Of a DNA stretch of 60,863 nt, positions 7,868 to 60,687 are shown one piece after another; the stretch's first letter is position 1, and the number at the start of each line of letters is the position of its first letter. Both the position numbers and the translations under genes were made by a program. The notes beneath the pieces were generated by a model. That model saw only the letters and a program-made list of their open reading frames with translations, did not search any database and was not told the DNA's origin. The DNA is from a virus. The stretch lies in IMG/VR virus record IMGVR_UViG_3300032333_000288, positions 1-60,863 of that record, one strand, 5' to 3'.

Positions 7868-7891
7868 CCTGAAGGCCAAGGAGAACACACC

Positions 7892-8392: not shown

Positions 8393-8415
8393 TTCACGGA
8401 CCAGCCGTGACCCAT

Positions 8416-8443
8416 AAGAACGGGGCCTGACGGCCCCGTTCTT
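8416..8443 (+). terminator. strong hairpin after the capsid unit
   Basis: A perfect 12-bp stem AAGAACGGGGCC/GGCCCCGTTCTT with a TGAC loop lies 24 bases after the stop at 8392. The U tract is part of the stem's A/T edge (GTTCTT), so it should work as an intrinsic terminator and could also protect the 3' end of the abundant capsid mRNA. Confidence 0.85.
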
Positions 8444-8469
8444 CCACCAGCAACCACAAGGACCTGACG

Positions 8470-8844
8470 ATGAAGTTCACCATGCCCCGCAACCGTACCA
8501 TCGCCTCGACGTGCGGCCTGTCGATCGAATTCAAAAAGGGCGAGCCCGCCCTGGTACCCCCGGCCATGTACGCCGAGGTCATCGCCGCCGGCGGAGTCTC
8601 GGAGGACGAGATCCCCGAAGACGAGCTGCCGACGAAAGCTGCCACGCCCGCTGCGCTGGCCGAGCGCGAAGCCGCGCTGATGGTGGCGTTCAAGAAGATC
8701 GCGTTGCGCAACGACAGCAAGGACTTCACTGCTGGCGGCATGCCGCATCTGGCTGTGATCCAGGCCGAGACCGGCTGGCGCGTGGACTCGAAGGAGCGCG
8801 ACGCCACCTGGGTGAAGTTCACGGCCGGTTCGGACCCGGACTAA
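8470..8844 (+). CDS. hypothetical head-module protein
   Basis: A 124-aa protein with a beta-rich N-terminus (MKFTMPRNRTIASTCGLSIE), an acidic linker (EDEIPEDELP) and a compact C-terminal helix-strand region (FKKIALRNDSKDFTAGGMPH, ending ATWVKFTAG). Phage heads often carry a protein of this size and shape between the capsid and adaptor genes, possibly a completion protein, but the exact family is not recognised. AAGGA lies 7 bases before the ATG. Confidence 0.7.
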   Translation: MKFTMPRNRTIASTCGLSIEFKKGEPALVPPAMYAEVIAAGGVSEDEIPEDELPTKAATPAALAEREAALMVAFKKIALRNDSKDFTAGGMPHLAVIQAETGWRVDSKERDATWVKFTAGSDPD

Positions 8845-8847
8845 GCC

Positions 8848-9507
8848 ATGACGCCCGGCGACCTGCTCACGCTGTTCCGCTCCGAGGTCAGCGACGTTGC
8901 GACGCCGTACCTGTGGATCGACGACGAGTTCTTCAGCTATGCCGACGACGCACAGAAGCAGTTCGCCCGCCTCACCTGGGGGCTGATCGACAGCTCGACG
9001 ACCGCCATCGTGGACATCCCGCTGGTGGCCGGCACGAACACCTACGACCTCAGCCCGCTGATCCTTGCCGTACGCGCGGCGCGCGTGACTGCCACGGGCC
9101 GCGGGCTCGACATCGTGAACCAGGAGGACATGCCCGTACGGCGCATGTACTTCGACGGCACGGAGGGCGTACCCCAGGCAGTGATCCTGGGCATGGACAC
9201 GGACAAGATCAGTGTGTGGCCCGTGCCGATCGAGGATGAGGCGATCAAGCTCTCAGTCTTCCGCCTGCCGCTGGCGGACATCACCAGCGCGAACGAGACG
9301 ACGCCCTTCGAGATTGCTCCGCAGCACCACCGGCACCTCCTGCTATGGGTGAAGCACCTCGCCTACCTCAAGCAGGACGCGGAGACCTACGACCGCATCA
9401 AAGCCGCTGAGTTCGGGGCCGCTTTCGAGGCGTACTGCGCACGAGCCAAGAAGGAACAGGACCGCTCGCGCCACAAACCCCGCTCCGTCACGTACGGAGG
9501 GATCTAG
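8848..9507 (+). CDS. head-to-tail adaptor (neck) protein
   Basis: A 219-aa protein with the hallmarks of podovirus neck adaptors: an N-terminal helical start (MTPGDLLTLFRSEV), a central beta region with NTYDLSPLILAVRAARVT, and a C-terminal helical hairpin of about 50 residues (HRHLLLWVKHLAYLKQDAET, FEAYCARAKKEQ). The role is to bind the portal ring and receive the tail hub. The stop TAG is followed immediately by TGA, and the next frame's GTG overlaps it; the better start of the next gene is further on. Confidence 0.75.
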   Translation: MTPGDLLTLFRSEVSDVATPYLWIDDEFFSYADDAQKQFARLTWGLIDSSTTAIVDIPLVAGTNTYDLSPLILAVRAARVTATGRGLDIVNQEDMPVRRMYFDGTEGVPQAVILGMDTDKISVWPVPIEDEAIKLSVFRLPLADITSANETTPFEIAPQHHRHLLLWVKHLAYLKQDAETYDRIKAAEFGAAFEAYCARAKKEQDRSRHKPRSVTYGGI

Positions 9508-32200: not shown

Positions 32201-35200
32201 GAGGTGCTGGCGATGATCCGCAAGGGCAACCAGTACATCAACAAGAGCACGGACCCGACGCTCGGCCCCTCGCCCGTCGAGGTGCAGGCGGACATGAACC
32301 TGATCCGCTTCCGCTCGAAGTCCGCGATCACGAAGAGCGACGAGAAGCGCGGCATCGCCGTGATCCCTGCCAGCGAGCTGGTGGCCTGGGTCTTCGCCAA
32401 CCGCAACGACTACAAGGGCGTTGAGGGCGGAAAAGAGAGTGCGTTGGAGTACCGCAACGCGCTGATGGAAGGCATCGGCGCGCTGGCCGAGGGCGGCTAC
32501 ATGGACGCGCTGCCGTTCATGATCAACGCCGAAGGCAACATCGAGCGCTTCGGCTCGAAGAAGCATGGCGGGTTCCCGCCATCGCTGAAGCTGGGCGGCA
32601 TGCGGCAGGCGGACCTGAACGAGGGCTCGAAGCGCATCGTCGCGGCGATTGTCGCCACGGACAAGGCGGAAAAGGAGATCCTCGACAAGATGACGCCGAA
32701 GCAGCGCGCCAAGTACGAGGCGGCTGCTGAGAAGAAGCGGAACGACGAGGTCGCCCGAGACCAGGAGAAGACTGAGAAGGTCAAGAACACGGACCCGGAT
32801 GAGCTGGTGAGCGAAGGGCGCGAGCACAACCCGAAGACCGCTGCGCGCCCAGTCGCTCAGCGCTCGCTCGATCTCGTGCCACCGTCTAAGGGCGAAGCCG
32901 GGCCTCACCCTGTCCTCATGTCCACGCCGGCCAAGGAAGCCCCGCCTGCACGGTACTGGGACGCGCCTGCGGCAGAGCCGACGGAGCCGGCGGCGTTCAC
33001 GAACCCTGAGTTCGACAACCCGCTGGGCACGCCCGACCGGCGGTTCGTGGGCGGCACCCAGATCCAGGGCGATCTGCCGGGCATGCCCGAAGCGCCCGGC
33101 CCGAACACCGGGGTCGAGCGCCCCTACACCACAGCCGTCGGCGTGTCCCGGCCCAGCCAGAAGGTGGACGAGAAGCGCTCAGGGCGCTTCCCCGTCGCCC
33201 CCGAGACCGTCGAGACCCGCCGCGACAACGTCGAGCGCACCCAGCTCGACTGGGACCTCAAGGCCCAGGACGGCGGGGTGCCGACGGACTTCACAGCCGC
33301 CCAGATGGCGAAGGCCGTCGCTGACGCGGCGCTGACAGAAGGCGAGACCCGCCCACTGACCCCGACGAACGCCACGGCCCGCGCGCCGGCCCTGGCGCGG
33401 GAGATCCTGTGGCAGCTCGACAGCTTCGACGGCCTGTTTGAGGGCAAGCGGGTGACGAGCGACGTGCCTGCCGACCCGCAGGGCGCCTTCCAGCGCATCC
33501 AGCGCCTCGTGGCGGCACTTTCTCGACCCGTCAGCACCACAGGTAGCCGCCCGGCCGGCGGGAGGCACTACGCGGCTCCCTTGGCCCTGATCCTGACTCC
33601 GGCGAACGTGAAGGTCCTGATCAGCAAGGCGCAGAACAAGGCCGCTGCCGGCCCGCGCCTGGAGCGCATGCGCGACAAGGTAGCACGAGCGCTGCTGCTG
33701 GCAGACGACAACGACCTGTCCCTGGCTGGGCGGGTGGTGGCTGCGCGGGCACTGCTGGGCAACGACGCCCTGACCAGCGCGACGATGAAGGCCCCGCTGA
33801 AGGTCATGGCTGACCGGGAAGAGAAGCGGCAGGCGGACGCGGCGGCGGACCAGCACCTCGAAGAGGTGGCGCGGAAAGCGAAGATTGCTGCGGTGCAGCA
33901 GAAGCGTTCAGCGAAGCCCATGCAGGCGAAGACTGAGGCGCCCGCAGAGGTCGACCTGTTCGGCCCTACGCCCAACGGGCGCCGCGCGCTGAAGACCGCG
34001 AGCATAGACACGCTGCTGAACGCCCGGGAGAAGGCCGTCAACCAGTTGCGCTACGACGACGCAGGCGTTGAGTACAACCCGGAACTCGATACGGATGCCG
34101 CAGTCATCCTTGCAACGCGCGTGGAAGCGCCGCCGGATGACGAGTTTTCGGCCGGGGTACTGCGAGCTATCGACGCTATCGACCACGAGATCAAGCGGCG
34201 TCGCGGCGAGGTGGGGACGCAGGCGAAGACCGAGCCGGCCAAGGTCAAGCTCAACGGCACGAGCGCCTACGTCGCCAAGGATCAAGCCAAGGCGGACAAG
34301 GCCAACAAGTTCATTGGGCGCGGCTCGGAGAGCAGCAGCACGGCCCAGTACGCCAAGGACTTCGGCCCCGCTGCCAACACCGGGACCTACGTCAGCACCG
34401 ACCGCGTGTTCGTGTCCGCTGAGGGCAAGCGCGAAGGGCGCGTGAACCCTGACCGCGCGGAGCTGGACAAGGCGGTGGCCGCGGGCGTGACGTTCATCAC
34501 CGACGACGCTCCGAACCGCGAGCGCGGCTACAACGTCGGTGAGCGGCAGATCGCGAAGTACCTGACCGAGAACGGCTACGCCGAGACGGCGCCGGGCGAG
34601 TGGATGAAGACTGAGGCCCCCGCCCAGACTCAGCGCTCCGTCCGCGACATGCCGATGAACTACAAGGACGGCACGAACGGCATGCGCATGCGCCCAGCGC
34701 TGGTCGGCAAGTCCACAATGGACCTGATCCGTGAGGGTGTCCGCACGGCCACGACCGGCGCGCTGGAGCGCTTCCGCGGTCTGAAGGTGGGCGACGTGTT
34801 CACGGTCGTGGGTGCAGACGACGAGCGCATCCAGGTGCGCATGACCCAGAACCCGCGCCCGGTGTCTGAGCTGACGCCGAGCGAGTGGGCCACGCCCGAG
34901 GGCTGGGCGACGGTGAACTACGCGAAGTACAAGGATGCATGGCAGATCAAGTACGAGCTGGTGAATAAGCCGGTTGCGACAGAGGCCCCGGCCCCCAAGC
35001 TCAACGCCATGCGCGGCCCGGCCCGGCCCACTCGCAAACTCAACGCCATGTCCGCGCGCATCCACAGCGAGCTGGGCCGGGCAGGATTCCCCGCCACGCA
35101 CGACTCGCCGATCCGGCACGAAGGTCGGTTCGACTGGCGCGAGCACGCCATGAAGGGCGAGGGCGCCATGGTCAAGGGCGCCGGCACGTACCTCAGCACT

Positions 35201-38200
35201 TCTGAGAGCGTGAACAAATACTACAAGGGGATGTTCACGGCGAAAGTCGAACCCGAATACGACTACGTGGCGGCTGACCGCATCAATACTCAGTTCATCA
35301 AAGCCGTCGGCGCGCGGACTGAAGTCAGCAGCGACGCCGCGAAGATCGCCGTCGGCAAGGGCAAAGAAGAAGCCGTCGCCTTCGTTCAACGGACCCTGGA
35401 CGAGCACCTCAAAGATGGGCCCGAGTCCACGATCTCGCAGGCCGAGTTCGATAAGTGGACAGAGCGCTACGAAAAATTGTTGAGGGCTATCAAAGCCATG
35501 CCGGAAAGCGAGATGCGTCCAAAGCGCATAGACGGGTTCCGAAACGACAAGTCCCCCACCTACGAAGTCTCCGTGAACATCCCGCAGGAGCAGCTCCTGA
35601 ACTGGGACAAGCCGCTGAGCGAGCAGAGCACGAAGATGCAAGAGGTGGCGAAGAAGGTGGCGGGCGAAGGGAAGATCGCAGACCTCTCACTGAAATGGAA
35701 ACAGGACGCCGACGATCTGTACACGGCAACTGACCCCGACACTTTCGCCATCTACACAATCCAGCAAGTCACCCCGAGCAAGTTCATCCTCACCGATGGG
35801 ATCGAAGAGATCGTCGGGATATACAGCTCACTCGAACAAGCGAAGCACGAAGCCGAGAAAGTGACGTTCGCCGGGCCTGACTCCGACAGGAAGATACTCA
35901 ACTACAGGGGCGAAGACTTCTACCGCGCGCTCTCGGACCACTTCGCTCCGGGCGACCGCGACACGGGCGACCGGCAGGCCAGCGACTACCTCCAAGCCGC
36001 TGGCATCCTGGGCCACCGCATGAAGGCCAGCGCCAAGGACGGCACGCAGAATCCAAACTACGTCATCTACGACGACAGCAAAATCACGACGAACTACGTT
36101 CACTTCAACGCCGAGACCGCGACCAAGGTCTCGTCGGACGCCGAAGTGGCCGAAGCCCTTGCCATGCTGAAGAAGACCCTCGGCCCGAAGATCATGGTCG
36201 AGGTCAGCAAGGACTTCCCGAATGCGGGCGAGTACCTCGAAGCTGAGCGGCTCATCAAGTTGTCCACGGTCATCGGCCCAGGCGTGCTCTCCGTGGCGTA
36301 TCACGAGGCACTGCACGACGCCTGGGCCAACGTGCTGAAGAACCACCCCGGCGCACGTGAGGCGCTGAGCAAGGTGATGTCGAGCCCTACCATGCTGGCC
36401 CGTCTTCAGGACAAGCTGGCGAACGAACCCGATGCCCTGGCGGCTATCGCCGACGGTGCGCCGCACGCAGCCGAAGAGCGCGTCGCCTACGCCTACCAGT
36501 TCTGGGCCGCGGGCGAGCTGGACGTGGACAAGCCGGCGACGACTCTGTTCGCAAAATTCCGCAAGATGCTGCGCAAGGTGCTGGGCATGGTGCGCGAGAG
36601 CGAGACCGCGCTCGACATCATGACCGCCCTGCACGACGGCAAGCTGGCTGAGCCCAGCGCTGCCGGGCGCGTGCTCAAGGAGATCATGGCCCGCGAGACC
36701 TGGAACGCGGACGTGAAGCGCAAGTTCGACAAGGTGATCCAGAACAGCTTCGCTGCGATCGCACCGAGCAACGACGTGCTGCGCCGCGAGACCCTCAGCG
36801 GCACGGCCCGGCTGCTGGGCAAGATCATGTTCTCGAACCCGGGCGAAGAGGCTGCGGGCGGCGACCAGGGCTACCTGAACGCACGCAAGCAGAAGATCGC
36901 CCAGTACACGAACTACCTGCACGCAGCCCTGAAGGGGCTGAGCGAGCGCGATCTGGCCGAGGTGGCGAAGCAGCTCCAGCTCAAGACACCTCTGGAGCAG
37001 ATCACCTACGCCCCAGTGCGCGACGCCGTCAAGGGTGTGCGTGCGCTGACGAAGCGGTACTACGAGTACGCCACCCAGAAGTCGCCGCACGGTGAGCCGG
37101 TGCTGAAGCTGGAGTTCCTCGGCGAAGACCACTACCCGCGCGTGTGGGACTTGCGCAAGCTCGTCGACGACGGTGACGGGCAGGCGAAGTTCATCGCCAT
37201 GCTGCTGCAGCCGAAGTACAAGAAGCCCATGGCCGCTGCGATGGCGATGGCGAACGCAGGCCGCAAGGTCATGACCCCCGTAGAGGTGGGCATGGCGATG
37301 GTGCGGGGGGAGAAGATCAACGCCGCATACACCGCCGAGCAGATTGCCCTGAAGATGTACGAGCGCCTCGTCGAGAAGAACGGCGTGGACGACATGTCCG
37401 CGGACAGCGACCGCATGGACGACGAGCTGCTCGACCCGTTCTTCGCCAGCCAGAAGGAGCGCAGCTTCAAGTGGCTGGACGACGCGGATGTGGAGCCGTT
37501 CCTGGACAAGGACGTTGTCTCGGCGATGACCCGCTACCTACACCAAGGCATCCGCGCTGTGGAGTTCAGCCGGCGCTTCGGCGAGCGCGGCAAGTTCCTG
37601 CGCCCGCTGCTGGTTATGAAGGGCGACCCGGTGTTCAACTCCGAGACCGGCAAGGTCGAACCGGCGGAGACCCACGGGCGCATCGCCAGCGAGATGTACG
37701 AGAGCCTGAAGAAGGCCGGCACGAAGGGCAAGGAGGCGGACCTGATCGTCGCCCGGCACATGGACGACGTGCGCAAGGCAGTCGCCGCGCATGAAGGCTC
37801 TCTAGGCCACACGATCAGCCCGACATGGCGCAAGTTCAGCAGCGCGGCGATGGCCTACCAGAACCTGCGCCTGCTGCCGCTGAGCCTGTTCGCTGCGTTC
37901 GGCGACACGATCGGCATCGCAGCACGTTTCGGCGAAGGTGGCGGGAAGCTGGCTTTCCAGGCGTTCACGCAGGGCCTGCGTGACGTGTACGCCCGCTGGA
38001 AGGACGCCGCCAGCGACATGCCGGCTGAGCGCCAGAAGACGGTCTGGGAGAACATCGCCGAGATGGTCGGCGCGGTGGACAGCCACATGCTCCTGGAACA
38101 GATGGGCAACGCTGCTGCCAGCGAGTTCACGACGGACTGGGCACGCAAGGCGAACCGTGCGCTGTTCATGGCGAACGGCCTGACCGCCTGGGACCGCAGC

Positions 38201-38929
38201 ATGCGGGTCTCAGCCACGAAGGCGGCGGTGCTCTTCCTTCAGCACCACGCCAGCCTGCCTGACAAGCAGCACAGCGCCCGCTGGCTCAAGGAGCTGGGGC
38301 TCAAGGTCGAGGACATCCCACTGGATGCCGACGGCAAGCTGATCTACGACCGGCACGTGCTGGCCGCGGAGAAGGGCATCTCCCTGGAGGACGCGACGAA
38401 GCAGGCCGAGAAGGTCCACTACGCCATCACCCGCTGGGTCGAGGGCGCGGTGCTGACGCCGACGGCAGGCCAGCGCCCGACCTGGGCGAGCGACCCACAC
38501 TACGCGGTGCTCTTCCACCTGAAGCAGTTCACGTACAGCTTCCACCACACGATCCTGAAGCGGGCGTTCAACGAGGCGGGCCACGGGAACATGGCCCCGA
38601 TCGGCGCGCTGATGATGGCTGTGCCAACGATGGTGGCTGCGGATCTGGTCAAGGGTGTCGTGGTGGGTGGTGGCTCGCTGCCAGCGTACATGCAGCAGTG
38701 GGACCTGGGCGATCACATGATGCACGGGTTCAACCGCGCCGGCCTGGGCGGCATCGGCCAGTTCGGCATCGACGGGCTGCGCGATCCGTTCAGTGTGCTG
38801 GGGCCGACGGTGCAGCAAGTATCGGAGTTCATCCTGAACCCGCTGGACATCGGGCACAACCTGCACAATGCAGTGCCGGGGGCTCGGTACATCAAGGGGC
38901 TCCCCGATCTGGCACGCGTGGCTGAGTGA
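29276..38929 (+). CDS. giant polyvalent virion protein, 3,217 aa
   Basis: The largest gene of the window, with no internal stop across 9.6 kb. The N-terminus (1-320) is Gly/Ala-rich with amphipathic helices. Around residues 1655-1770 a segment TAQYAKDFGPAANTGTYVST ... TFITDDAPNRERGYNVGERQ is typical of phage polyvalent proteins. Near residue 1942, HDSPIRHEGRFDWREHAMKG ... GAGTYLSTSE looks like an ADP-ribosyltransferase-type fold of these proteins. A metallopeptidase-like AYHEALHDAW (His2343, Glu2344, His2347) follows. The last 700 residues are helical and match the large-polyvalent-protein C-terminal region, with WDRSMRVSATKAAVLFLQHH and YAVLFHLKQFTYSFHHTILK. I infer that it is packaged, ejected and acts in the host; none of the activities is proven. 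It is not recognisably an N4-type virion RNA polymerase. Confidence 0.85.
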   Translation: MATLRDLVPGLDQSLAGLVPGSGPSPVQQGLRGPATALIEDEAEAAGMGQLRRGFTTGRLQADANALATDESAARAAGDTAAADALRLRIGGLQQRAKTFAPTEQDVTQLDWQPGRILDYGLATMGQGAASMTDPLAVGVGANAAAGVLGLIPHPLAQGGAKALRAGGILGGGYLNYRQNKGEFYNQAVEDPTLLAGRTAQEIDRAGTGHGVVAGALDTALPAWAANRIVPGGTKVLSGLGGGMKAALGLGGEAVTETLQGESKRGILGLLNPQRDTSGDAAERWNDAVGGAIGAAPIVGLSHLGDKANARLGVKDDTSSDDVSGGKTMPGAPKREKLTDSLKRGAAKYTDDDAAEKWNETLQGLHNPDQEVATTEQHAALLKELGGRAAKGDTVAQQHIDALNKLDPADSATWYGAPQRDAAYEHILGDGTDHEKVIEAYKGRKLNAQGGSDTAPVRLAASILSSSLPENADQALHAEAKDIARELASFADVAEGRGKLHDPLKAQGVAQRIADVFPGKTAAALVAKVATAIGVETTPLFKQLQQNLAGAADIANVKKSGRTSRAAVGDQLVALIPASKQLALRNEGIDLTSPAYKAALVDYVEQLGKAISYGATDNKGEPIAVSPSAYAKLTAKVGSEAAVAMLDMVSPGKIIEKESDAPKENGGGTTGPAKESDREGEKRSGGLGDDLEMDDFDIDAAKKSMERAPGAKLYLTKGKRGIATAGDTEGAHPFVRDKKTGNLPKLSLADDTDTKSGFNTLEAMEERAYEMLTGKPWEPLPGDDLKDMETYWTSMQKTVEEGGTKVTRRTTQELSPGQYIKNDDPKAQPVLGIGSFRIRRISAKDVMDDRGVAAGRRTTLLRQYLAQDGVLGEDDRTLTQLATLSRKIRELTDEAQPQPVKRNPQAVPLAGQGVAELEELKAQRTEVIAKLAKKIGVEAKDDATVEDLANAYFGQRFLITAEQMAEKDQLRLNQAEVLAMIRKGNQYINKSTDPTLGPSPVEVQADMNLIRFRSKSAITKSDEKRGIAVIPASELVAWVFANRNDYKGVEGGKESALEYRNALMEGIGALAEGGYMDALPFMINAEGNIERFGSKKHGGFPPSLKLGGMRQADLNEGSKRIVAAIVATDKAEKEILDKMTPKQRAKYEAAAEKKRNDEVARDQEKTEKVKNTDPDELVSEGREHNPKTAARPVAQRSLDLVPPSKGEAGPHPVLMSTPAKEAPPARYWDAPAAEPTEPAAFTNPEFDNPLGTPDRRFVGGTQIQGDLPGMPEAPGPNTGVERPYTTAVGVSRPSQKVDEKRSGRFPVAPETVETRRDNVERTQLDWDLKAQDGGVPTDFTAAQMAKAVADAALTEGETRPLTPTNATARAPALAREILWQLDSFDGLFEGKRVTSDVPADPQGAFQRIQRLVAALSRPVSTTGSRPAGGRHYAAPLALILTPANVKVLISKAQNKAAAGPRLERMRDKVARALLLADDNDLSLAGRVVAARALLGNDALTSATMKAPLKVMADREEKRQADAAADQHLEEVARKAKIAAVQQKRSAKPMQAKTEAPAEVDLFGPTPNGRRALKTASIDTLLNAREKAVNQLRYDDAGVEYNPELDTDAAVILATRVEAPPDDEFSAGVLRAIDAIDHEIKRRRGEVGTQAKTEPAKVKLNGTSAYVAKDQAKADKANKFIGRGSESSSTAQYAKDFGPAANTGTYVSTDRVFVSAEGKREGRVNPDRAELDKAVAAGVTFITDDAPNRERGYNVGERQIAKYLTENGYAETAPGEWMKTEAPAQTQRSVRDMPMNYKDGTNGMRMRPALVGKSTMDLIREGVRTATTGALERFRGLKVGDVFTVVGADDERIQVRMTQNPRPVSELTPSEWATPEGWATVNYAKYKDAWQIKYELVNKPVATEAPAPKLNAMRGPARPTRKLNAMSARIHSELGRAGFPATHDSPIRHEGRFDWREHAMKGEGAMVKGAGTYLSTSESVNKYYKGMFTAKVEPEYDYVAADRINTQFIKAVGARTEVSSDAAKIAVGKGKEEAVAFVQRTLDEHLKDGPESTISQAEFDKWTERYEKLLRAIKAMPESEMRPKRIDGFRNDKSPTYEVSVNIPQEQLLNWDKPLSEQSTKMQEVAKKVAGEGKIADLSLKWKQDADDLYTATDPDTFAIYTIQQVTPSKFILTDGIEEIVGIYSSLEQAKHEAEKVTFAGPDSDRKILNYRGEDFYRALSDHFAPGDRDTGDRQASDYLQAAGILGHRMKASAKDGTQNPNYVIYDDSKITTNYVHFNAETATKVSSDAEVAEALAMLKKTLGPKIMVEVSKDFPNAGEYLEAERLIKLSTVIGPGVLSVAYHEALHDAWANVLKNHPGAREALSKVMSSPTMLARLQDKLANEPDALAAIADGAPHAAEERVAYAYQFWAAGELDVDKPATTLFAKFRKMLRKVLGMVRESETALDIMTALHDGKLAEPSAAGRVLKEIMARETWNADVKRKFDKVIQNSFAAIAPSNDVLRRETLSGTARLLGKIMFSNPGEEAAGGDQGYLNARKQKIAQYTNYLHAALKGLSERDLAEVAKQLQLKTPLEQITYAPVRDAVKGVRALTKRYYEYATQKSPHGEPVLKLEFLGEDHYPRVWDLRKLVDDGDGQAKFIAMLLQPKYKKPMAAAMAMANAGRKVMTPVEVGMAMVRGEKINAAYTAEQIALKMYERLVEKNGVDDMSADSDRMDDELLDPFFASQKERSFKWLDDADVEPFLDKDVVSAMTRYLHQGIRAVEFSRRFGERGKFLRPLLVMKGDPVFNSETGKVEPAETHGRIASEMYESLKKAGTKGKEADLIVARHMDDVRKAVAAHEGSLGHTISPTWRKFSSAAMAYQNLRLLPLSLFAAFGDTIGIAARFGEGGGKLAFQAFTQGLRDVYARWKDAASDMPAERQKTVWENIAEMVGAVDSHMLLEQMGNAAASEFTTDWARKANRALFMANGLTAWDRSMRVSATKAAVLFLQHHASLPDKQHSARWLKELGLKVEDIPLDADGKLIYDRHVLAAEKGISLEDATKQAEKVHYAITRWVEGAVLTPTAGQRPTWASDPHYAVLFHLKQFTYSFHHTILKRAFNEAGHGNMAPIGALMMAVPTMVAADLVKGVVVGGGSLPAYMQQWDLGDHMMHGFNRAGLGGIGQFGIDGLRDPFSVLGPTVQQVSEFILNPLDIGHNLHNAVPGARYIKGLPDLARVAE

Positions 38930-46871: not shown

Positions 46872-47447
46872 CTACTCCGCGCGTACGGTGAACCCGAAGG
46901 CCATCAGATCGGCCAGCAGGTTGGAAGTCGTCGCTAGTGGGTAGGGCTTGGCGATCTTAGGGATGTGCGGGGCCAGTTCAGGCAGGCGCTCCAACGCCTT
47001 CTCGACCGTGCGGACGCTGTTGAGCACGGCACGCAGTTGGCTCTTCGTTCGCAGGTACGCTTCAGCCAGCGCGGTTGCCTCAGCCGTCAGCTCCACGAAG
47101 TCGGCCTCGTGAACTTCGTCCTTGTGATGCGCGGTCGTGGGCACTGCGGGGTCGACCTGAACGCGATGCCCACCATAGTGCATGGTGGACTCGAATGCCT
47201 GATCGAGGATCTTGTGCGGGTTCCACTCTGCGTTGCCTGTCCAGACAGAGTCAGTCCACTGCAGCCACTCACGTGGCACCGTCTTTGAGAGGGCCACCAG
47301 CCCCGGAGGAGCGTCGCGCTCCAGCATGGCACACGCATGAGCACTAACGCGCTTCTCTAGCGCGTCACGTCGCTCCTGGAAAGTCGTCGAAGCGAGGACG
47401 CTGGAGACGATCTCGTCGATCATCGTCTTGTTGAGTCGTGTTGCCAT
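46872..47447 (-). CDS. helical phage protein, possibly Nmad5-like
   Basis: A 191-aa protein starting MATRLNKTMIDEIVSSVLAS. The first 60 residues (a basic helix, RRDALEKRVSAHACAM) followed by LVALSKTVPREWLQW and a C-terminal helix (SQLRAVLNSVRTVEKALERL, LPELAPHIPK) resemble the Nmad5 nucleotide-modification-associated group in order and size, but I cannot confirm the family from memory. If right, it would hint at modified bases in this phage. Confidence 0.55.
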   Translation of the reverse strand: MATRLNKTMIDEIVSSVLASTTFQERRDALEKRVSAHACAMLERDAPPGLVALSKTVPREWLQWTDSVWTGNAEWNPHKILDQAFESTMHYGGHRVQVDPAVPTTAHHKDEVHEADFVELTAEATALAEAYLRTKSQLRAVLNSVRTVEKALERLPELAPHIPKIAKPYPLATTSNLLADLMAFGFTVRAE

Positions 47448-47520
47448 GGGTGTTCCTATTGAGTGATCCGTTGAGTGACGATGTGGAGGGCCGCTTTGCG
47501 GAGTTGATCTGAGCCATAGC

Positions 47521-49629
47521 TCACTTGCTGTAGTTGAAGGCGTGTCCACCCTCGGAAGACAGCGGGAGGTCTTTGCACCAGTCGAGCGGTACGGTCATGC
47601 GCTTGAGCATCTTGGCCGACGCAGACGACGCCTGAGCCTTCTTGACGCAGGCCACCATCTCGTCGTGCGTGGTCATCACCATGCGCATCGACTTGCTGAG
47701 GTCGAGCATCTGGTACATGACGATGATGCGGGCCAGGGCCTGCACGATGTTCTCGCAGAGGAGACCGCCGTAGATTTTCTTGCGGATGGGCTGGCCCTTC
47801 AGCGTCGAGGCGTAGGTCCACTCGTCCCACCCCTTGTCGCCGACGACCTTTCTCAGGTCGGGGTAATGCAGCCGCATGCCGTTCGGCAACCAGATGCAGT
47901 CTTTCTCCCAGTTCAGTGGGCCGTGGCTGCCTTCGCGGCCAGCAGCCATGTCTTCGATGATGTTGTTGCAGATGTCCCAGCCCTTGGCGATCTTGTCGTT
48001 CTTGCGGCGGTAGGTCTGCACCCAGCGCTTCGCTTCTTCGAGCGTGATGAAGATGGGCGGGCCACCGAGCGCACCCTTCGCCAGGGTGATCTGGAGCTTG
48101 GTTGGCCCCATCTGGAAGCCGAGGCCGAGGGTCAGCACTTTGCCGACGAAGCGCTCAGTCTTGTCGTCCTTGGTGATCGTGCGCCCATAGATGAGCGAGG
48201 CCATCAGGCAGTATGGGTCGGCGCCGGTCTTCGCGTCGCTGGCCTTGAACGCAGCCAGGATGTCGTTCTGCTTCCAGAGCCATGCGTTGACCCGTGCCTC
48301 GATTTGGCCTGAGTCACCGACGGCCAGCTCGTAGCCAGGTGGGGCTTCGATGGACTCGCGCAGGGCGCCGCCACGCTTGAGGTTCTGCAGGTTCCGTTTG
48401 TCGCCGCCGCCCAGCCGGTGCGTGTGCGCGCGGCTGTAGGCGTAGTAGGCGGGCAGAGTGCCATGCTTCGCTGAGGTCAGCATGCGCTCGGCGCGGGTGA
48501 TGTTCGTCGTGCTCTTGACGGCAATACGGGTGTCCACGAGCAGGCGCAGACGCTCGGACTTTGCTGTCATCTGCTTGATGCCCTCCGTGGTGTTCACGTC
48601 GGGCACAGCCGTCCAGCGCGTGGTGTCGTCAGGCAGGTTGACGAACTCCACGTCATCCTTGGCAAAGGCATAGGCCCATTTGCCGTCTTCGTCAGCCTCA
48701 CGCGCAGCTTTGTCCTTCTTCATCCAGGCTGGGCTGAGCTTGACCGGCGGGTCCACGCCTTCTGCGATCAGCAGATCGGCGAAGCGGTTCGTGCTGCCCA
48801 CGATGCGCTTGACGATCAGAATGTCGCGCTCCTTGCCTTCGAGTGCGCGTTCGACCTTTGTCTTGAGCACGGTCTTGTCGGTGTAGAACGGCTTCGGGTC
48901 GAGCACGGAGAGGAAGAGGGTCTCGCGTTCGGCCAGCTCGCGCGCCAGCTCGGCTTCGACGCGGGCCACGTTCACACGCAGGACCGGCTCGCAGAACATG
49001 CGGACCAGCACGTCGATGAGGTCGATCTCTTCGCTGGGCAGCGCGTAGACCATCTCTTGGAATACGCGCAGAGTCTCGTCGCCGTCGTTCAGGCAGTACG
49101 TCGAGGCTTCGGCATAAAGGGCCGGCGACCAAACGAGAATGCCTTTGGTCTTTTCGAGTACGTCGTGAATCTTGCCTGCTCCGCCGTAGAAGACTGAGAC
49201 CTCATCCAGGCCGGCGCCGATTTCGTTGGAGTGGATGCCGCGGGCCATGGACAGAGTGTCGTAATAGAAACTCGGAACCACACCGTAGTGGTGGCTGAGA
49301 ATGAGGCCGTCGAATTGGGTGTGGTGGCAGAGCAGGCCATGGGTGCCCCAGTTGATCTTGCGGAGTTCGGCTTTGATCTTGTTCGGCGGGATGATGCGGG
49401 CCGGCTTCAGGCCGACCTTCAGATACATCATCTGCGCCTTGAAGCGCGGGTCGCGGACGTATTCGGAAGTGGACAGTTTGGAAAGCGTGTAGTCCTGGTC
49501 GTAGTAGGTTTCTATGTCTACTACAACGAGTCTGTTCCAATCAACTTCTTTGGCTTGAAATGCAGGGCGGGCAAAATCCGGAGCGATGCGGCTAGTGACC
49601 TTACGAAGAGTGTTTTGCCAAGCGTTCAT
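47521..49629 (-). CDS. DNA polymerase, family A, with proofreading domain
   Basis: The replicative polymerase, 702 aa from ATG 49629, whose A overlaps the stop of the HNH gene (ATGA). The frame is open to 49749 but inside that gene. Exo I is LVVVDIETYYDQDY with Asp38 and Glu40. Pol motif A reads VGDSGQIEARVNAW near residue 438, motif B KVLTLGLGFQMGPTK near 505, and motif C MVMTTHDEMVACV near 654. The ribosome-binding site is weak, so expression may depend on coupling. It forms the core of the replication block with helicase, ligase and exonuclease. Confidence 0.94.
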   Translation of the reverse strand: MNAWQNTLRKVTSRIAPDFARPAFQAKEVDWNRLVVVDIETYYDQDYTLSKLSTSEYVRDPRFKAQMMYLKVGLKPARIIPPNKIKAELRKINWGTHGLLCHHTQFDGLILSHHYGVVPSFYYDTLSMARGIHSNEIGAGLDEVSVFYGGAGKIHDVLEKTKGILVWSPALYAEASTYCLNDGDETLRVFQEMVYALPSEEIDLIDVLVRMFCEPVLRVNVARVEAELARELAERETLFLSVLDPKPFYTDKTVLKTKVERALEGKERDILIVKRIVGSTNRFADLLIAEGVDPPVKLSPAWMKKDKAAREADEDGKWAYAFAKDDVEFVNLPDDTTRWTAVPDVNTTEGIKQMTAKSERLRLLVDTRIAVKSTTNITRAERMLTSAKHGTLPAYYAYSRAHTHRLGGGDKRNLQNLKRGGALRESIEAPPGYELAVGDSGQIEARVNAWLWKQNDILAAFKASDAKTGADPYCLMASLIYGRTITKDDKTERFVGKVLTLGLGFQMGPTKLQITLAKGALGGPPIFITLEEAKRWVQTYRRKNDKIAKGWDICNNIIEDMAAGREGSHGPLNWEKDCIWLPNGMRLHYPDLRKVVGDKGWDEWTYASTLKGQPIRKKIYGGLLCENIVQALARIIVMYQMLDLSKSMRMVMTTHDEMVACVKKAQASSASAKMLKRMTVPLDWCKDLPLSSEGGHAFNYSK

Positions 49630-53403: not shown

Positions 53404-54510
53404 CTACACGTCAATCTTGATCGTTTCGCCAAAGGGCGCGACCACGTCGGTGGTCATCACCCACATGACGGGGTAAGGTGGTGGCTCCTTCGGGAATGGT
53501 CCCTCACCGTCGGTGAGGTAGATGAAGCAGGCCGGCTTGAGGTCGTTCTTCTTGACGTACTCGAACGGCGGGCGGAAGTCCGTACCGCCACGACCAGGCA
53601 TCTTGAATTCGGGCACCTGGTACTCGTCGTACGTGTCCACCTTCTGCACGCGCGCGTCGCAGTAGATGTTGACCATCTCTTGCGGCTTGGCCATCAGCTT
53701 GATGGCGTTAATCTCGCTACCGAAGGCGTCGAGCTGGAACTGATCGACGGAGCCGCTGGTGTCGATGCTGTTGATGATGCGGCCCATGGCCTCGTTGTGC
53801 AGGCTCGGCAGGTAGTAGCCGAAGGGCACCATGCGGCGTTGTGGCCGGCTCCAGGAGAAGTCGGTCTTCGCGTGCAGCATGGCGAAGCGGCGCAAGCGCT
53901 CGCGCCAGTTCAGTTTGCCGCTGGTCAGCTTCTCGACGAAGCTGGTCATCGAGCCGGGCAGTTTGCCCTGCTTCTTCGCCTCGGTCGCAGCCTGAATGCC
54001 GGCGATCTTCCACTCGACAGCATTCGCTTCAATGGCCGAAGGGTCGCCGGGCTTGAGTGAATCGAGCGCGCCTTGACCCTTACCATTCTTCGCGCCGCCG
54101 CCGGGCGGCATGTCAGGCAGCAAGGTGTAGATGTGATCGGCGGACATGCCATCGAAAGCCTGGTCGTAGAGCCAGGTCTCGCCGATCTTCATGCCGTCGT
54201 TCTTGATGTTCGCGTTGACGACGTAGTCGATGGCGTGATTCCACTTGTCGGGATCGCGCGGGCCGCAGCGGTCGATGTGATCGAGCAGTGCATGCTGGAC
54301 TTCGTGGCAGACCGCCGACATCTGGAGTTCTTCGTCGAGTTCGAGGAAGAACGTGGGGTTGTAGTAGATGGTCGTATTGCTCACGCACAGCGTCTTGATT
54401 GACGGGTCCTCTTCAATCGCCAGGCGCAGGGCCAGGATGCCGTAGAACGGCTGGTCGATGTAGAGCGCCGTGCGGGCACGAATCATCGCAGTGTGAGCAG
54501 CCTTGTTCAC
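53404..54510 (-). CDS. metallopeptidase-like / VWA-domain protein (DUF2201 type)
   Basis: A 368-aa protein, GTG start coupled to the DUF3150 gene (GTGA). The N-terminal domain has CHEVQHALLDH with the zinc motif His69, Glu70, His73 and following HAIDYVVNANIKN. The C-terminal domain is VWA-like with the MIDAS motif DTSGS near 249 and a strand ending YLTDGEGPF. This two-domain layout is the usual partner of a MoxR-type ATPase, which is encoded at 56287. The trio probably forms a metal-dependent chaperone or protease-like complex; substrates unknown. Confidence 0.88.
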   Translation of the reverse strand: MNKAAHTAMIRARTALYIDQPFYGILALRLAIEEDPSIKTLCVSNTTIYYNPTFFLELDEELQMSAVCHEVQHALLDHIDRCGPRDPDKWNHAIDYVVNANIKNDGMKIGETWLYDQAFDGMSADHIYTLLPDMPPGGGAKNGKGQGALDSLKPGDPSAIEANAVEWKIAGIQAATEAKKQGKLPGSMTSFVEKLTSGKLNWRERLRRFAMLHAKTDFSWSRPQRRMVPFGYYLPSLHNEAMGRIINSIDTSGSVDQFQLDAFGSEINAIKLMAKPQEMVNIYCDARVQKVDTYDEYQVPEFKMPGRGGTDFRPPFEYVKKNDLKPACFIYLTDGEGPFPKEPPPYPVMWVMTTDVVAPFGETIKIDV

Positions 54511-56286: not shown

Positions 56287-57462
56287 CTACACGAGAATGT
56301 CTTGATTCGCCAATCCCCATTTTGCGTACCTCCCCGTGCTCAGGATGTTCTTGTCGCGCGCCGTGGCGGCGCGGACGAAGGCCACCTGGATCTCGCGGCT
56401 CAGCCGTTCGACGTAGTCCATGACACGGTCGAAGTTGCTGGCCTTGGTCTTGTCGCTCAGCGTCATGACCACCGCGTGGGTGACAGGCGTGGAGCCCGGC
56501 AGTTGTGCACGCTTCGGATCCATCATGATGCTGTCGATGTCAGGCATGTCCTTGATGTCGCGGACGAAGCCGGTGAACTCGCCAGCGGCGCCTTCACCCA
56601 CGGTGCCCTTGATCAGCTCGAACTTCTCACCGGCGGTGTAGTCGCGCTTGTAGATGCGGTCCACGCCGTACCAGGCGCGCGGCGTCGGGAAGCAGCGCGG
56701 GTTCGCCGTGGTGTCGAAGGCGTGCAAAGCGTGGGTTTTCAGCTTGATGAAGGCACGGATGTGCGGGTGAATATCGTCGTCCGCTGCACGCATCAGCCAG
56801 TCGGTGGAATCCACCTCGTAGTCGATGTGCAGGAAGCGGTTCGCCAGCGGCGCGGCCATCTGGTACGTGATGCCTCGGTCGCCCTGATTGTTGCCAGCGG
56901 CCACGATGCTCCAGTTGTCGGGCAGTTCGTACTGGCCGATGCGGCGGTCGAGGATGAGCTGGTAGCAGGCGCTGGCCACAGCGGGCATGCCTCCGTTCAT
57001 CTCGTCGAGGAACAGGACACCAGGAGCGTCGCCCTTGCGCGGCAGGAAGTCGGCGGGCAACCACTCCATCTGCTTCTTCTTCGTGTCGGGCATGGGGAAG
57101 CCGCGGAGGTCGATGCTGTCGAGCTGGCTCACGCGCACATCGGCGAGTGAGCGCTTCGTGGCCTGAGCGATCTGGCTGACGACGCTGGACTTGCCGGCGC
57201 CCGACGGCCCCCAGATGAAGACGGGTTGCCGATCGTCGAGTAGCTTAGGGAGGACATGAGCAAGAATGGAGGGTTTCACGGATTTGGTTTCCTTGGGTGG
57301 GTTGTAGGTGGCGACGAGATAGCCGATGCCGAAGAACAGTGCGGCGACGAAAGCGAAGGTGCCGACGACGATCAGCAGCAGAACGCGGAATTGCTTGGTG
57401 CGGGACAGGGGAAGGAAGAGAGGCCGGCCGATTTCTTCCTCGTAGCTTTGGTTTTGGTTCAT
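56287..57462 (-). CDS. MoxR-like AAA+ ATPase with an N-terminal membrane helix
   Basis: A 391-aa protein. Walker A is GPSGAGKSS (Lys91), Walker B VLFLDEMN (149-156), sensor 1 AAGNN near 188-192, arginine finger ANRFLH (Arg209). The core is of the MoxR/CobS type and pairs with the DUF3150 and VWA genes downstream. Unusually, residues 27-51 (VLLLIVVGTFAFVAALFFGI and on) form a hydrophobic span after a short polar N-terminus, in the same frame with no break. If the annotated start at 57462 is right, the ATPase is anchored in the inner membrane, cytoplasmic domain C-terminal. Confidence 0.88.
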   Translation of the reverse strand: MNQNQSYEEEIGRPLFLPLSRTKQFRVLLLIVVGTFAFVAALFFGIGYLVATYNPPKETKSVKPSILAHVLPKLLDDRQPVFIWGPSGAGKSSVVSQIAQATKRSLADVRVSQLDSIDLRGFPMPDTKKKQMEWLPADFLPRKGDAPGVLFLDEMNGGMPAVASACYQLILDRRIGQYELPDNWSIVAAGNNQGDRGITYQMAAPLANRFLHIDYEVDSTDWLMRAADDDIHPHIRAFIKLKTHALHAFDTTANPRCFPTPRAWYGVDRIYKRDYTAGEKFELIKGTVGEGAAGEFTGFVRDIKDMPDIDSIMMDPKRAQLPGSTPVTHAVVMTLSDKTKASNFDRVMDYVERLSREIQVAFVRAATARDKNILSTGRYAKWGLANQDILV

Positions 57463-57503: not shown

Positions 57504-58043
57504 TTAAAAATCTCCCGACGCTACCTGGGCGCAGACGATGCCGTTGCGCCGCCACATATCGACGACGCGCTGGCGGTCGTCGAACACCATGACGAGGCGA
57601 GCGCGGTCTTCGGGGCTCATGGCGTGGAGCCAGGATTCCTTGAGCTGGTCATCGGGCGTGTAGTCGCCGGCGGGGCGCATCTTGACCAGCATATCGAACG
57701 GACCTGTGTACTTAAGGGAGACGTTCTGGTCAATCCAATCGAGTGTTTGTTCCCGCACAGTTTCCATGCGGCCTGACCAGATCCAAATCTCGGTCTTGAG
57801 ACAAGACAACGCCCAAACGATGTTAATGACCGGCTGAATCGGCGTATCGCCCACGCACGCGGCGTGGAAGGCGTCCCAGTTGGGCTTGAATGGGTGTTTG
57901 GCGCCACAAATGCACGTCGCTCGATCATTCGAGTTCCAGCAGGACAGACACCTGACACTTGGCCGCTCAACGAAGTGCCGGCGATGCTTCAGATCCGCGA
58001 GCGTGCCGTCGAGGTCGAAGATGTAGAGGGGTGTGGTGTTCAT
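57504..58043 (-). CDS. HAD-family phosphatase with a zinc-knuckle-like insert (PNK 3'-phosphatase-like)
   Basis: A 179-aa HAD enzyme. Motif I is IFDLDGTLAD (Asp10, Asp12); motif II IWSGR near 88-92; motif III Lys135 in DDQLKESWL; motif IV VFDDRQRVV (Asp155, Asp156). The layout matches the phosphatase domain of phage polynucleotide kinases, which removes 3' phosphates, but there is no kinase domain. Between motif I and the cap, Cys32, Cys35, Cys44 and Cys46 (RCLSCWNSNDRATCICG) likely bind zinc. Start ATG 58043 is coupled by ATGA. Confidence 0.87.
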   Translation of the reverse strand: MNTTPLYIFDLDGTLADLKHRRHFVERPSVRCLSCWNSNDRATCICGAKHPFKPNWDAFHAACVGDTPIQPVINIVWALSCLKTEIWIWSGRMETVREQTLDWIDQNVSLKYTGPFDMLVKMRPAGDYTPDDQLKESWLHAMSPEDRARLVMVFDDRQRVVDMWRRNGIVCAQVASGDF

Positions 58044-58171
58044 GACGCCGTCCGAAGTTTGTGGTTCATGCATTTGACATGGTTGACTGCGTTCCACCAG
58101 TCGCGCGCGTTGACGGGCTGTTTGTCGGAAGTGACGTGCCAGCGACCGCGTTTGAAGTAGAAGCGAATCAT
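58040..58171 (-). CDS. 43-residue basic protein
   Basis: Starts at ATG 58171 inside an ATGA overlap with the gene before it, ends in an ATGA overlap with the HAD gene. The sequence MIRFYFKRGRWHVTSDKQPV then ARDWWNAVNHVKCMNHKLRT is aromatic and basic, as in small nucleic-acid-binding proteins. The double coupling supports a real gene. Unknown function. Confidence 0.6.
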   Translation of the reverse strand: MIRFYFKRGRWHVTSDKQPVNARDWWNAVNHVKCMNHKLRTAS

Positions 58172-58404
58172 GCTTCCTTCTTCCTCTCGCCACGTTGACG
58201 CGCAGGGCGTGCATCTGCCAGCCGGTCCAGTGGAATCTCGACGCCGCCACGATGCACGAAGACAGCGTAGGGCCCGGCCTGCCGGCGCGCTGCGCGGATG
58301 ATGCGGTATGCCAGTTCGGCGGTGCCTGCCAGGGTGGTGTACGTCCAGCGCTGCACCAGGGTGCCGTAGGGGCGGTGCAGTTCGACCACGTAGGGTGCGC
58401 TCAT
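58168..58404 (-). CDS. hypothetical protein, 78 aa
   Basis: Starts at ATG 58404 (MSAPYVVELHRPYGTLVQRW). A helix (LAGTAELAYRIIRAARRQ) is followed by a short strand region (GPYAVFVHRGGVEIPLDRLA) and a basic tail. Coupled by ATGA at both ends. No family recognised. Confidence 0.6.
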   Translation of the reverse strand: MSAPYVVELHRPYGTLVQRWTYTTLAGTAELAYRIIRAARRQAGPYAVFVHRGGVEIPLDRLADARPARQRGERKKEA

Positions 58405-58616
58405 GGTTGACCCTTCACCCACGCTATTGCAGCCAATACCCTGGCGTTGTGAGCTCCGTATTCCGCAAGAATCTCGGCGCGCGTCTGGTCGCTTTGGCCG
58501 TACTTTTGCGCCATCTGTTCGGGTGTGCAGTTCCTGAACGCAGCGCGGGCGCGGTACAGGTCATCGCCGAGCATTTGCTCCAGCGCTCGAATTGCTAGTT
58601 GCTTATGTTCGTTCAT
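58401..58616 (-). CDS. hypothetical helical protein, 71 aa
   Basis: An all-helical small protein: MNEHKQLAIRALEQMLGDDL, CTPEQMAQKYGQSDQTRAEI, YGAHNARVLAAIAWVKGQ. The TPEQMA...YG.S..T..EIL pattern is shared by small phage proteins of unknown role. It overlaps the HNH stop by 14 bases. Confidence 0.65.
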   Translation of the reverse strand: MNEHKQLAIRALEQMLGDDLYRARAAFRNCTPEQMAQKYGQSDQTRAEILAEYGAHNARVLAAIAWVKGQP

Positions 58617-58914
58617 CTTCCCTCCTCTTGCGTTGGATGGCGGCTGCTAGCTTGCGGAAGTCGTGCCTGGGTTGCTTGGGCGCTAAGCCCTTCAGCTGCA
58701 TCGCCAGCCGGTGTGGGATCGGCGTGTTACCACGCGCGTTGTTGCATGGCTTGCATGCCAGCTTGAAGTTCGACTCGACATCGCGTCCGCCCTTGCTCTT
58801 GGGCTGCAGGTGGTCGACCGTGGCCGTGCTGCGGAACAACTGGCAGTTGCACATCCAGCACCAGCGCGGCTTGCGCCCCTCGAACTGCTTGTCAAGGTAC
58901 TCGGTCGGTCTCAA
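58603..58914 (-). CDS. HNH nuclease, classical zinc-ribbon type
   Basis: A 103-aa HNH protein, TTG start with GGAG 8 bases upstream. WCWMCNCQLF (two zinc cysteines), ATVDHLQPKSKGGRDVESNF (the catalytic DH and the N of HNH), and KLACKPCNNARGNT (second zinc pair with HNH histidine position replaced by N-x-A-R). A basic C-terminus follows (QRKRREDERT). This is the free-standing HNH type seen beside terminases and in phage early regions. It is unlike the two other HNH genes. Overlaps both neighbours by short frames. Confidence 0.85.
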   Translation of the reverse strand: MRPTEYLDKQFEGRKPRWCWMCNCQLFRSTATVDHLQPKSKGGRDVESNFKLACKPCNNARGNTPIPHRLAMQLKGLAPKQPRHDFRKLAAAIQRKRREDERT

Positions 58915-59305
58915 GCCCCAACTCCCACACGCTGTTCGGGCCGCGCTTCTTGATTGGCGCCGCCTCCTTGGCAGGGACGATCTGTCGCTTCAACGGCAGC
59001 AGGTCAGCTGCGTCGATCTTCTCCAGGGCACGCTGCTCACACTTCTGCCTTGCTCGCAGCTCGGCGTAGGCTGCGCGGTCGGCGTACAACAACTCGATTC
59101 GACGTGCGACGGTGCCGGGCGGACCCCAGTAGATACCTCGACCACGCCTACGTGTGCGTTCGACGAGCTTGCGCTTCTCCAGAGTGACCAGGATGTGGCG
59201 GATGACACCGGGCGTGAGGTTGAGCTTTGCTGAAAGGTCGCTGACCTTGAGGCCGTCGGTCCCGACTTCGACAAGGGCGGCGTGGACGAGGTCGGTGTGG
59301 GTCAT
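58892..59305 (-). CDS. winged-helix DNA-binding regulator
   Basis: A 137-aa protein starting ATG 59305 (ATGA overlap). Residues 1-65 form a winged helix-turn-helix: [60 protein letters not shown]. The rest is a helix that may dimerise ([20 protein letters not shown]) and a basic tail. As the only clear transcription-factor-like protein in the window, it is a candidate for binding the 20-bp elements, but this is untested. Confidence 0.8.
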
Positions 59306-59790
59306 GTCAGCGAATCTTTCGGCATATTCTCCAGCGCTTTCGCAGGGTAAATCTGCACACTGCCTGGGTGGGCGTCGGACTCCACGGCATAGCCATCGGG
59401 CGTCAACGTCGTGCAGTATTCGCCCACCACGCGGCCCTGCCATGCAGACCCGCTGCGCTTACGCACACGGTCGCCACGGTTGAACGTGGGCTGCGGATGC
59501 TGGGCCTGAGGTGCTGCGTATAGCGGAACAACACGCCCACCAAAGTATTCGTCTGGCTCCCCGGTGTCAGCCCTAAATTCGCTGGGCGGCTCCGCGCCAA
59601 CGTAACTGCACTTCGGATTCTTGGGGTGCCATACCTTGTACGCCACCGGCTCAGACTGCGGCTCGGTCTTCCCAGTGGCAAGCATCCGGTCTATTTCGGC
59701 AACTACCTTGGCCGGGCAGTCCCGGTCATACTGCCAAGTCACGACCAGCATGCGCAGGTCTTCCAGTTGTTGGGTTACTGTGGCGTTCAT
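59302..59790 (-). CDS. protein ending in a type II (R67/DfrB-like) dihydrofolate reductase domain
   Basis: A 162-aa protein. Residues 103-155 match the R67/DfrB SH3-like DHFR closely: [17 protein letters not shown], then [18 protein letters not shown] and [14 protein letters not shown]. The known functional residues line up: Lys111 (R67 Lys32), Trp117 (Trp38) and Gln146-Ile147-Tyr148 (Gln67-Ile68-Tyr69), with identical spacing of 35 between Lys and Gln. R67 works as a homotetramer around one pore, reducing dihydrofolate with NADPH and resisting trimethoprim. Here a 100-residue N-terminal part ([20 protein letters not shown], and an EPVAYKVW ... VPLYAAPQ stretch common in phage early proteins) is fused in front. 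Whether the tetramer still forms is unknown. Confidence 0.85.
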
Positions 59791-60494
59791 TTCGTCTTCT
59801 CGCAGTTCTTGGCGTCGTCAGCGTGCTGGCAGATGTCAGTGCCCTGCCTGTCGCACCATGGGCACGTCATTGATTCCAGCGCAGTGCTGCAGTCTTCCCA
59901 CATCCAATCGTTTTGAGCGGCAGGCTCAGACTTAGGCTGCTCTAGGGCGTCACGTTCTGCGCACGCCTTTCCGTCTGCAAGGCCGGCGGTGTAGCCGGCG
60001 ATGAAGTCGGGGCGCTCCTTCAGAGGCTGTAGGGCGTGACCATTGCGCCATTCGTCGATCTCTGCTTGCTGTGCAGCAACCACCTCACTCGCACTGCAAT
60101 TCATCGGACTGCGCGGCAAGCGTTCCTGCCAGGGCTTCACGAACCGTGGTTGCTGGGCCTGTGGCACTTGCAGGGCAGCGATCCACTCATCGCCAATACT
60201 TCCAAGATCGTTTTCTCGGATGTAGCAGATGATTTCTCGTATGGTGCGAGACTGTGCCCCCGGCTCAGGCTGCGGCTCGGCTTGTTTGCATTTGCCCTCC
60301 GCTGCACACGGCTTGCAGACCAGCCAAGGACTGTCGTTGTCAGCACATTCGTGGACAGGCTGCGGCTCGGCCAGGGCGGCGCGGAGTGCTTCGGCATGCT
60401 CCCTAATGTCGTCATCGCATGCGCCTGTTTTACGCCAGCGGCGGTCAAGGAAATCTTCTGCCGCCTGCGCGGCTGTTCTCAGTTGCTCAGTCAT
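59787..60494 (-). CDS. Cys-rich early-region protein, unknown function
   Basis: A 235-aa protein; ATG 60494 (a GTG one codon earlier is possible, with GGGAG 5-8 bases upstream). It is a patchwork of a helical N-terminus ([20 protein letters not shown]), Pro/Gln/Glu linkers, and two Cys sections: [17 protein letters not shown] near 60 and [20 protein letters not shown] near the end. A central helix has [20 protein letters not shown]. It looks like the Ea22-like early proteins of lambdoid-type phages in style. Overlaps the next gene by ATGA. Confidence 0.65.
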
Positions 60495-60687
60495 CACTCA
60501 ATCTCCCGTGAAGGTTGACCGGCGGACCCACGTCCACCGGCTTGATCGGGCAGCGCTCGGTGCTGCACTCCCAGTACCCGCTGGACACGGCGCGCAAAGC
60601 GCTGCCGGTGCGCTTGCACTTAGGGCATGTGTCGGGCAGCTTCAGGCCCGTGTAGACCGGGCCATCGAGGGGGTGAGATTGGGTCAT
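60487..60687 (-). CDS. small zinc-ribbon protein
   Basis: A 66-aa protein with DTCPKCKRTGSALRAVSSGY then WECSTERCPI: four Cys in a C-x2-C ... C-x4-C zinc ribbon. Small proteins like this often bind nucleic acid or ribosomal partners in phage early regions. Coupled by ATGA at 60687, overlapping the next gene. Confidence 0.7.
   Translation of the reverse strand: MTQSHPLDGPVYTGLKLPDTCPKCKRTGSALRAVSSGYWECSTERCPIKPVDVGPPVNLHGRLSDD

Follow-up and report, generated by a model that had tools for sequence, protein, structure and literature searches.

Does a phage gene in which an R67-like (DfrB-type) domain follows an unrelated N-terminus encode a trimethoprim-insensitive dihydrofolate reductase (DHFR), and do such phage genes bear on the origin of the DfrB resistance enzymes? 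The gene lies in a window that comprises a whole IMG/VR virus record of 60,863 bases, whose nearest named relatives are the Pseudomonas podoviruses KPP25 and phiR18 (portal 48%, DNA polymerase 37%). The original prediction of an R67-like domain in this open reading frame is confirmed far beyond chance. Residues 100-155 match the Pfam family DHFR_2 (PF06442, R67 dihydrofolate reductase) with E = 4.9e-30 and 103.6 bits against a gathering cut-off of 25, and phmmer aligns the protein to the R67 chain 1vie with E = 1.2e-24. The gene product thus belongs to the R67/DfrB domain family as a phage representative. Searched against DfrB proteins and phages, the check proposed with the prediction, the domain finds phage relatives as well as plasmid-borne DfrB1 and DfrB4 (74.5% and 76.4% identity; for DfrB1, 40 of 53 residues, about 75%). 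The R67 core was predicted to be in order at residues 103-155 with Lys32, Trp38, Gln67, Ile68 and Tyr69 in register, and the ungapped alignment bears this out and adds H62: K32, W38, H62, S65, V66, Q67, I68 and Y69 of R67 correspond to K111, W117, H141, S144, V145, Q146, I147 and Y148. The interface residue W38 is thereby kept; the position of W45 is occupied by E124. The AlphaFold2 model of the domain (pLDDT 92-96) superposes on R67 with an rmsd of 0.8 Å over 58 residues (Z 12.2), compared to Z 8.7 for the next unrelated fold. Foldseek/VIA also pair the domain with KOW, Tudor and chromo domains (Z up to 8.7), which we attribute to a general SH3-barrel likeness and set aside.

Strictly speaking, the protein should nevertheless not be counted among the DfrB resistance proteins, as it scores 109.9 bits with the NCBIfam resistance model NF000331, below the curated cut-off of 137. 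The resistance enzymes are stand-alone proteins of about 78 amino acids with a short N-terminal tail, whereas the window protein counts 162 residues, around 100 of which form an unrelated N-terminus. It belongs to the type of fused phage DfrB homologues, in which the domain lies inside a longer phage protein. Residues 100-155 also match PHROG 31682, a family without assigned function. The features of the gene and its surroundings are listed in Table 1.

Table 1. Coordinates of the fusion gene, its parts and the two adjoining genes in the window.
Feature	Position	Strand	Description or basis
Fusion gene	59302..59790	minus	162 aa, ATG start, TGA stop; N-terminal region, PVAW/PLYAAP module, Pro/Gln-rich linker and C-terminal DfrB (DHFR_2) domain
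DfrB/R67-like SH3-fold domain, residues 101-157	59320..59490	minus	Pfam, R67 match, AlphaFold2 model, superposition
Pro/Gln-rich linker, residues 92-100	59491..59517	minus	Sequence; no secondary structure in the AlphaFold2 model
EPVAYKVW ... VPLYAAP module, residues 49-91	59518..59646	minus	Three predicted strands (AlphaFold2), motif counts, gene order in phage contigs L041 and L076
N-terminal residues 1-48	59647..59790	minus	Predicted helical, low confidence; no family match
Upstream gene, 236 aa, no assigned function	59787..60497	minus	Stop overlaps the fusion-gene start by 4 nt (ATGA)
Downstream gene, winged-helix protein (MarR-like, below Pfam cut-off)	58892..59305	minus	ATG at 59303-59305 overlaps the fusion-gene stop by 4 nt (ATGA)

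The fusion gene sits in an operon on the strand that also carries the genes for DNA polymerase A, a helicase, a ligase and a nuclease. That this strand is the early one may be presumed. Neither ThyA, ThyX nor FolA is encoded in the window. Other genes on the minus strand include an Nmad5 (nucleotide modification associated) domain gene that adjoins the DNA polymerase gene (46872-47549), a MoxR-like AAA_5 ATPase with a hydrophobic N-terminal stretch near a DUF2201 metallopeptidase/VWA-like protein (53404-54510 and 56287-57462), and a polynucleotide kinase phosphatase-type (HAD_PNKP) protein (57504-58250) with a small HNH endonuclease nearby (58603-58914). The plus strand contains an open reading frame of 3217 residues (29276-38929), which is very large for a 61-kb phage.

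The domain is widespread in viruses. Profile-guided scans yielded 267 DfrB-domain relatives encoded in 2.9 million viral contigs and 52 in 84,980 bacterial and archaeal species (one genome each); both counts are pattern-based and hence lower bounds, and the two collections are unmatched in size. This suggests that the domain resides chiefly in viruses and supports the earlier proposal that phages may serve as its reservoir. Of the 26 phage records found to contain a DfrB domain, none is KPP25 or phiR18. Among 178 unique phage contexts, 61 appear to be fused, 95 stand-alone and 22 unclear. Elsewhere, genes for SSB, ERF, YqaJ, HNH, N6/N4 methylase and integrase proteins are found as neighbors of DfrB-domain genes. 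A distinct DfrB-like lineage, mostly of 71-74 amino acids, occurs in the Alphaproteobacteria (L131-L134 and L136-L139, from Bradyrhizobium, Ensifer, Sphingomonas, Novosphingobium and Mesorhizobium). It reads KKGRASWRGKIVGWYRTDLT ... EPGSVQIYP, retains K32 and SVQIY, and mostly has no phage-like neighbors. In addition, one Polynucleobacter MAG contig (L113, around 7800-8866) carries two different DfrB-domain genes on opposite strands.

Across 202 unique domains, the residues that line the pore in R67 hardly vary. S65, V66, Q67 and Y69 are present in all 202, I68 in 200 and K32 in all 200 in which it could be aligned, while position 62 is either Glu (n = 128) or His (n = 74) and W45 and the surface are variable. 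The invariance is not only a product of search bias, since domains recovered with a pattern outside the pore motif still show SVQIY (160 of 162) or SVQLY (2 of 162). Together with a dN/dS of 0.257 over 76 independent pairs, which shows purifying selection in the family, this conservation means that the pore is under selection in phages.

R67 is a homotetramer with one central pore, in which K32 and the VQIY strand aid the binding of NADPH and dihydrofolate, and hydride transfer proceeds without a catalytic acid (R67 literature and PMC9835603). By analogy, four C-terminal SH3-like domains of the window protein would assemble into a D2 tetramer as in R67, and its single central pore would bind NADPH and dihydrofolate and let hydride pass between them. 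Since this pore bears no relation to the FolA site, trimethoprim should not inhibit such an enzyme. The N-terminal 100 or so residues (helices, PVAW/PLYAAP module and Pro/Gln linker) would remain outside the tetramer on a flexible tether and may derive from shuffling with neighboring phage genes. Made along with the replication genes, the enzyme could supply tetrahydrofolate for dTMP synthesis by the host thymidylate synthase. In our judgment, the best explanation, and a reasonably probable one, is a DHFR tetramer that withstands trimethoprim and carries its N-terminal module on a tether, in line with the domain match, the superposition on R67, the invariant pore residues, the dN/dS value and the operon on the replication strand.

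Experimental data on relatives are informative in this respect. Longer proteins that contain a DfrB domain have been assayed from two phages (of Pseudomonas and Vibrio) and two bacteria, and the Vibrio phage protein conferred trimethoprim resistance (PMC9835603). The homologues DfrB-H4 (Vibrio phage), DfrB-H5 and DfrB-H6, all less DfrB1-like than the window domain, gave resistance to 600 µg/ml trimethoprim in Escherichia coli with or without their extra domains, the cut-out domains being sufficient, and DfrB-H5 forms a DfrB-like tetramer (PMC9835603). The window protein is likely to be competent as a DHFR in vitro. Against this stands DfrB-H3, the one published homologue without activity, for which a lack of soluble expression was blamed (PMC9835603): it is most likely identical to the 'dehydrofolate reductase' BAR92343 of Pseudomonas phage PS-1, the nearest named match to the window protein over its full length.

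The physiological role is a separate matter. A survey of 50 phage records carrying DfrB identified ThyA in seven, ThyX in one (all separate records) and FolA in none, so that 42, the window included, encode neither thymidylate synthase. The idea that the domain travels with a phage thymidylate synthase is not supported, as ThyA is not significantly enriched over SSB-carrying control phages (7/50 versus 2/40, p = 0.29). Both observations, as well as the slowness of DfrB enzymes, speak against DHFR as the selected role in the phage, a reading we hold tentatively and would put just short of even. One could alternatively regard the phage domain as a tetramerizing module that acts in DNA recombination or replication and in which the pore accommodates a different ligand, be it a nucleotide, some other pterin or just NADPH, with DHFR activity being adventitious. 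The scarcity of thymidylate synthase among carriers fits such a role, as do the recombination, replication, HNH, methylase and integrase genes in the neighborhood and the very different partners to which the domain is appended. A native function unrelated to DHFR has indeed been suspected, the activity being proposed as adventitious in proteins without known function (PMC9835603). However, the residues of R67 that handle dihydrofolate and NADPH are invariant over very divergent phages, distant members still function as DHFR (PMC9835603), and no other ligand is known, which makes this alternative possible but on the doubtful side. The survey leads one to ask what phages, most of which lack thymidylate synthase, gain from a slow pore enzyme that depends on NADPH.

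Returning to the preferred reading of a DHFR domain on a tethered N-terminal module, the DfrB-type domain and the unrelated N-terminus do form one phage gene, as originally proposed: the N-terminus belongs to the gene because of the ATGA overlaps at both of its ends. That the fusion is an annotation artefact, with the domain translated on its own from an internal start like the many stand-alone phage genes of 59-80 amino acids (95 of 178 unique contexts), is highly improbable, as the first ATG is pinned down by the overlapping upstream gene, no internal start codon lies just before the domain (no ATG, GTG or TTG between codon 49 and codon 109, the latter already inside it) and most of the fusion protein can be aligned with a phage protein of 167 aa, in all likelihood the one from PS-1.

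The N-terminus itself has no Pfam or PHROG family. Searching its 101 residues alone against 50,697 phage records returned nothing credible (best E about 10), and a whole-protein single-sequence scan of the viral contigs found no relative, so that domain alignments were needed. AlphaFold2 predicts weak helices at residues 3-38 and, with moderate confidence, strands at 50-55, 58-64 and 86-90, followed by the linker. The suggestion that this region anchors or regulates the tetramer finds no family, confident fold or conservation in its favor. A strict motif search for the PVAW module proved too narrow, and a looser pattern was used instead. With this pattern, 11 of 91 fused proteins, PS-1 among them, have a P-V-A-W ... 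L-Y-A-A-P stretch ahead of the domain. In phage contig L041, a similar stretch belongs to a gene of its own (249 aa), which shares a 4-nt overlap with a stand-alone DfrB gene; in phage contig L076, a similar PVAW/PLYAAP-type stretch comes after the DfrB domain. Outside DfrB proteins, the pattern matches 11 open reading frames versus 13 shuffled ones (of 7805), showing no excess; the case for a shared module is therefore built on the 11 fused proteins and the gene orders in L041 and L076. On the domain tree, 21 changes between fused and stand-alone forms are needed, given fusion calls that depend on the choice of start codon. Fused and stand-alone forms interchange, an outcome that we ascribe to genes being shuffled in phages.

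Where the DfrB enzymes that confer trimethoprim resistance originated is an open question. No relatives of theirs have been characterized, and trimethoprim has been proposed to have promoted the extraction of the DfrB domain from longer proteins (PMC9835603). Burkholderiales have been named as the original hosts of dfrB in a paper whose text leaves phages unmentioned (PMC11662351). The survey makes the question testable, as the dfrB genes group with a phage gene inside a phage-rich clade, the bacterial copies lack phage surroundings and a stand-alone phage copy is 81% identical. In a domain tree of 138 rows (53 columns, unsettled bootstrap, midpoint root), a supported clade (97/94) unites a single phage gene (L012) with the mobile dfrB genes and those of Burkholderiales. 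It is nested in a supported clade of 40 rows (99/90), in which the window is accompanied by 30 rows from phages, eight from genomes and one from a plasmid. The phage gene is a stand-alone 69-aa DfrB gene (L012:7971-8177) in a 36.9-kb contig, and its domain is 81% identical to those of DfrB1 and DfrB3. Ahead of it lies a processivity-factor gene, and behind it come a serine-type integrase gene and tail genes; the contig is a real phage. The 23 genome loci of the dfrB clade have at most one flanking gene in common with the flanks of phage DfrB genes, while 15 of the 28 other genome loci share at least two and are prophage-like (p = 2e-5 versus the dfrB-clade loci). AU tests over the 53 columns do not decide exactly where the window sits beside the dfrB clade (p = 0.10 with the window kept in the group, p = 0.22 for a group of just the six dfrB rows, L012 left out). 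No Pfam family at E up to 10 provides a sequence-level outgroup for rooting.

The flanks and the tree would fit a capture from a phage, followed by life in bacteria and then in integrons, a course that is plausible but unproven given the short domain and the lack of an outgroup. One scenario, for and against which the arguments appear evenly balanced, is that the DfrB domain has its ancestral pool in tailed phages, where it is shuffled between stand-alone and fused early genes, and that the chromosomal dfrB genes of Burkholderiales, and later the integron genes, stem from one capture of an L012-like stand-alone copy. A root within the dfrB clade is a possible alternative to a phage origin. Of the original proposal that phages may be the ancestor of the family, the grouping of the dfrB clade with one phage gene in a phage-rich clade holds; ancestry itself is a suggestion, the root not being inferable. 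The reverse course, in which the phage recently acquired the window gene as a resistance gene from an integron or from a host carrying dfrB, is very unlikely. Its domain is 74-77% identical to those of DfrB1, DfrB3 and DfrB4 and has a Cys at R67 position 47 in common with the dfrB domains, but the closest domains are phage or prophage-like (L009 with 82.7%, L090 and L010 with 79%), the surrounding genes show no integron-like features, and the family is far more diverse in phages.

Fused phage homologues have been published before (DfrB-H3 and DfrB-H4 in PMC9835603; PMC12466917) and are already annotated in GenBank, and a claim of discovery for the fusion was in that respect overstated. As far as the open literature shows, the wider phage picture of the domain has been undescribed so far. 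Virome open reading frames similar to DfrB2 (67%; PMC7265639) and DfrB6 (75%; PMC10580818) and the eight dfrB candidates counted in lytic phages (PMC12466917) are phage-borne DfrB-like sequences like the window gene; in the parts of these sources available to us they are reported as candidate resistance genes, without domain architecture or phylogeny. DfrB-H4 (Vibrio phage), DfrB-H5 (Methylobacterium) and DfrB-H6 (Sphingobium) similarly carry the domain within longer proteins without known function. They differ from the window protein in having unrelated extra domains, a lower domain identity to DfrB1 and, in the corresponding relatives of our survey (L006, L128 and L121), Glu rather than His at position 62. 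The PS-1 protein comes closest over the full length: it is a 167-aa phage protein with an N-terminal region, a P-V-(A/S)-W ... L-Y-A-A-P module, a short linker and a C-terminal DfrB domain. Its N-terminal part resembles that of the window protein only loosely, its domain is farther from DfrB1 than the window domain (31/53 versus 40/53 identical residues) and, in a further difference from PS-1, no DNA methyltransferase gene was found adjoining the window gene. R67/DfrB1 (type II DHFR, PDB 1VIE) is a 78-aa protein borne on integrons and plasmids that lacks a fused partner and has a Trp where the window protein has Glu (position 45), yet the two have the whole SH3-like core, all pore residues, H62 and the fold in common.
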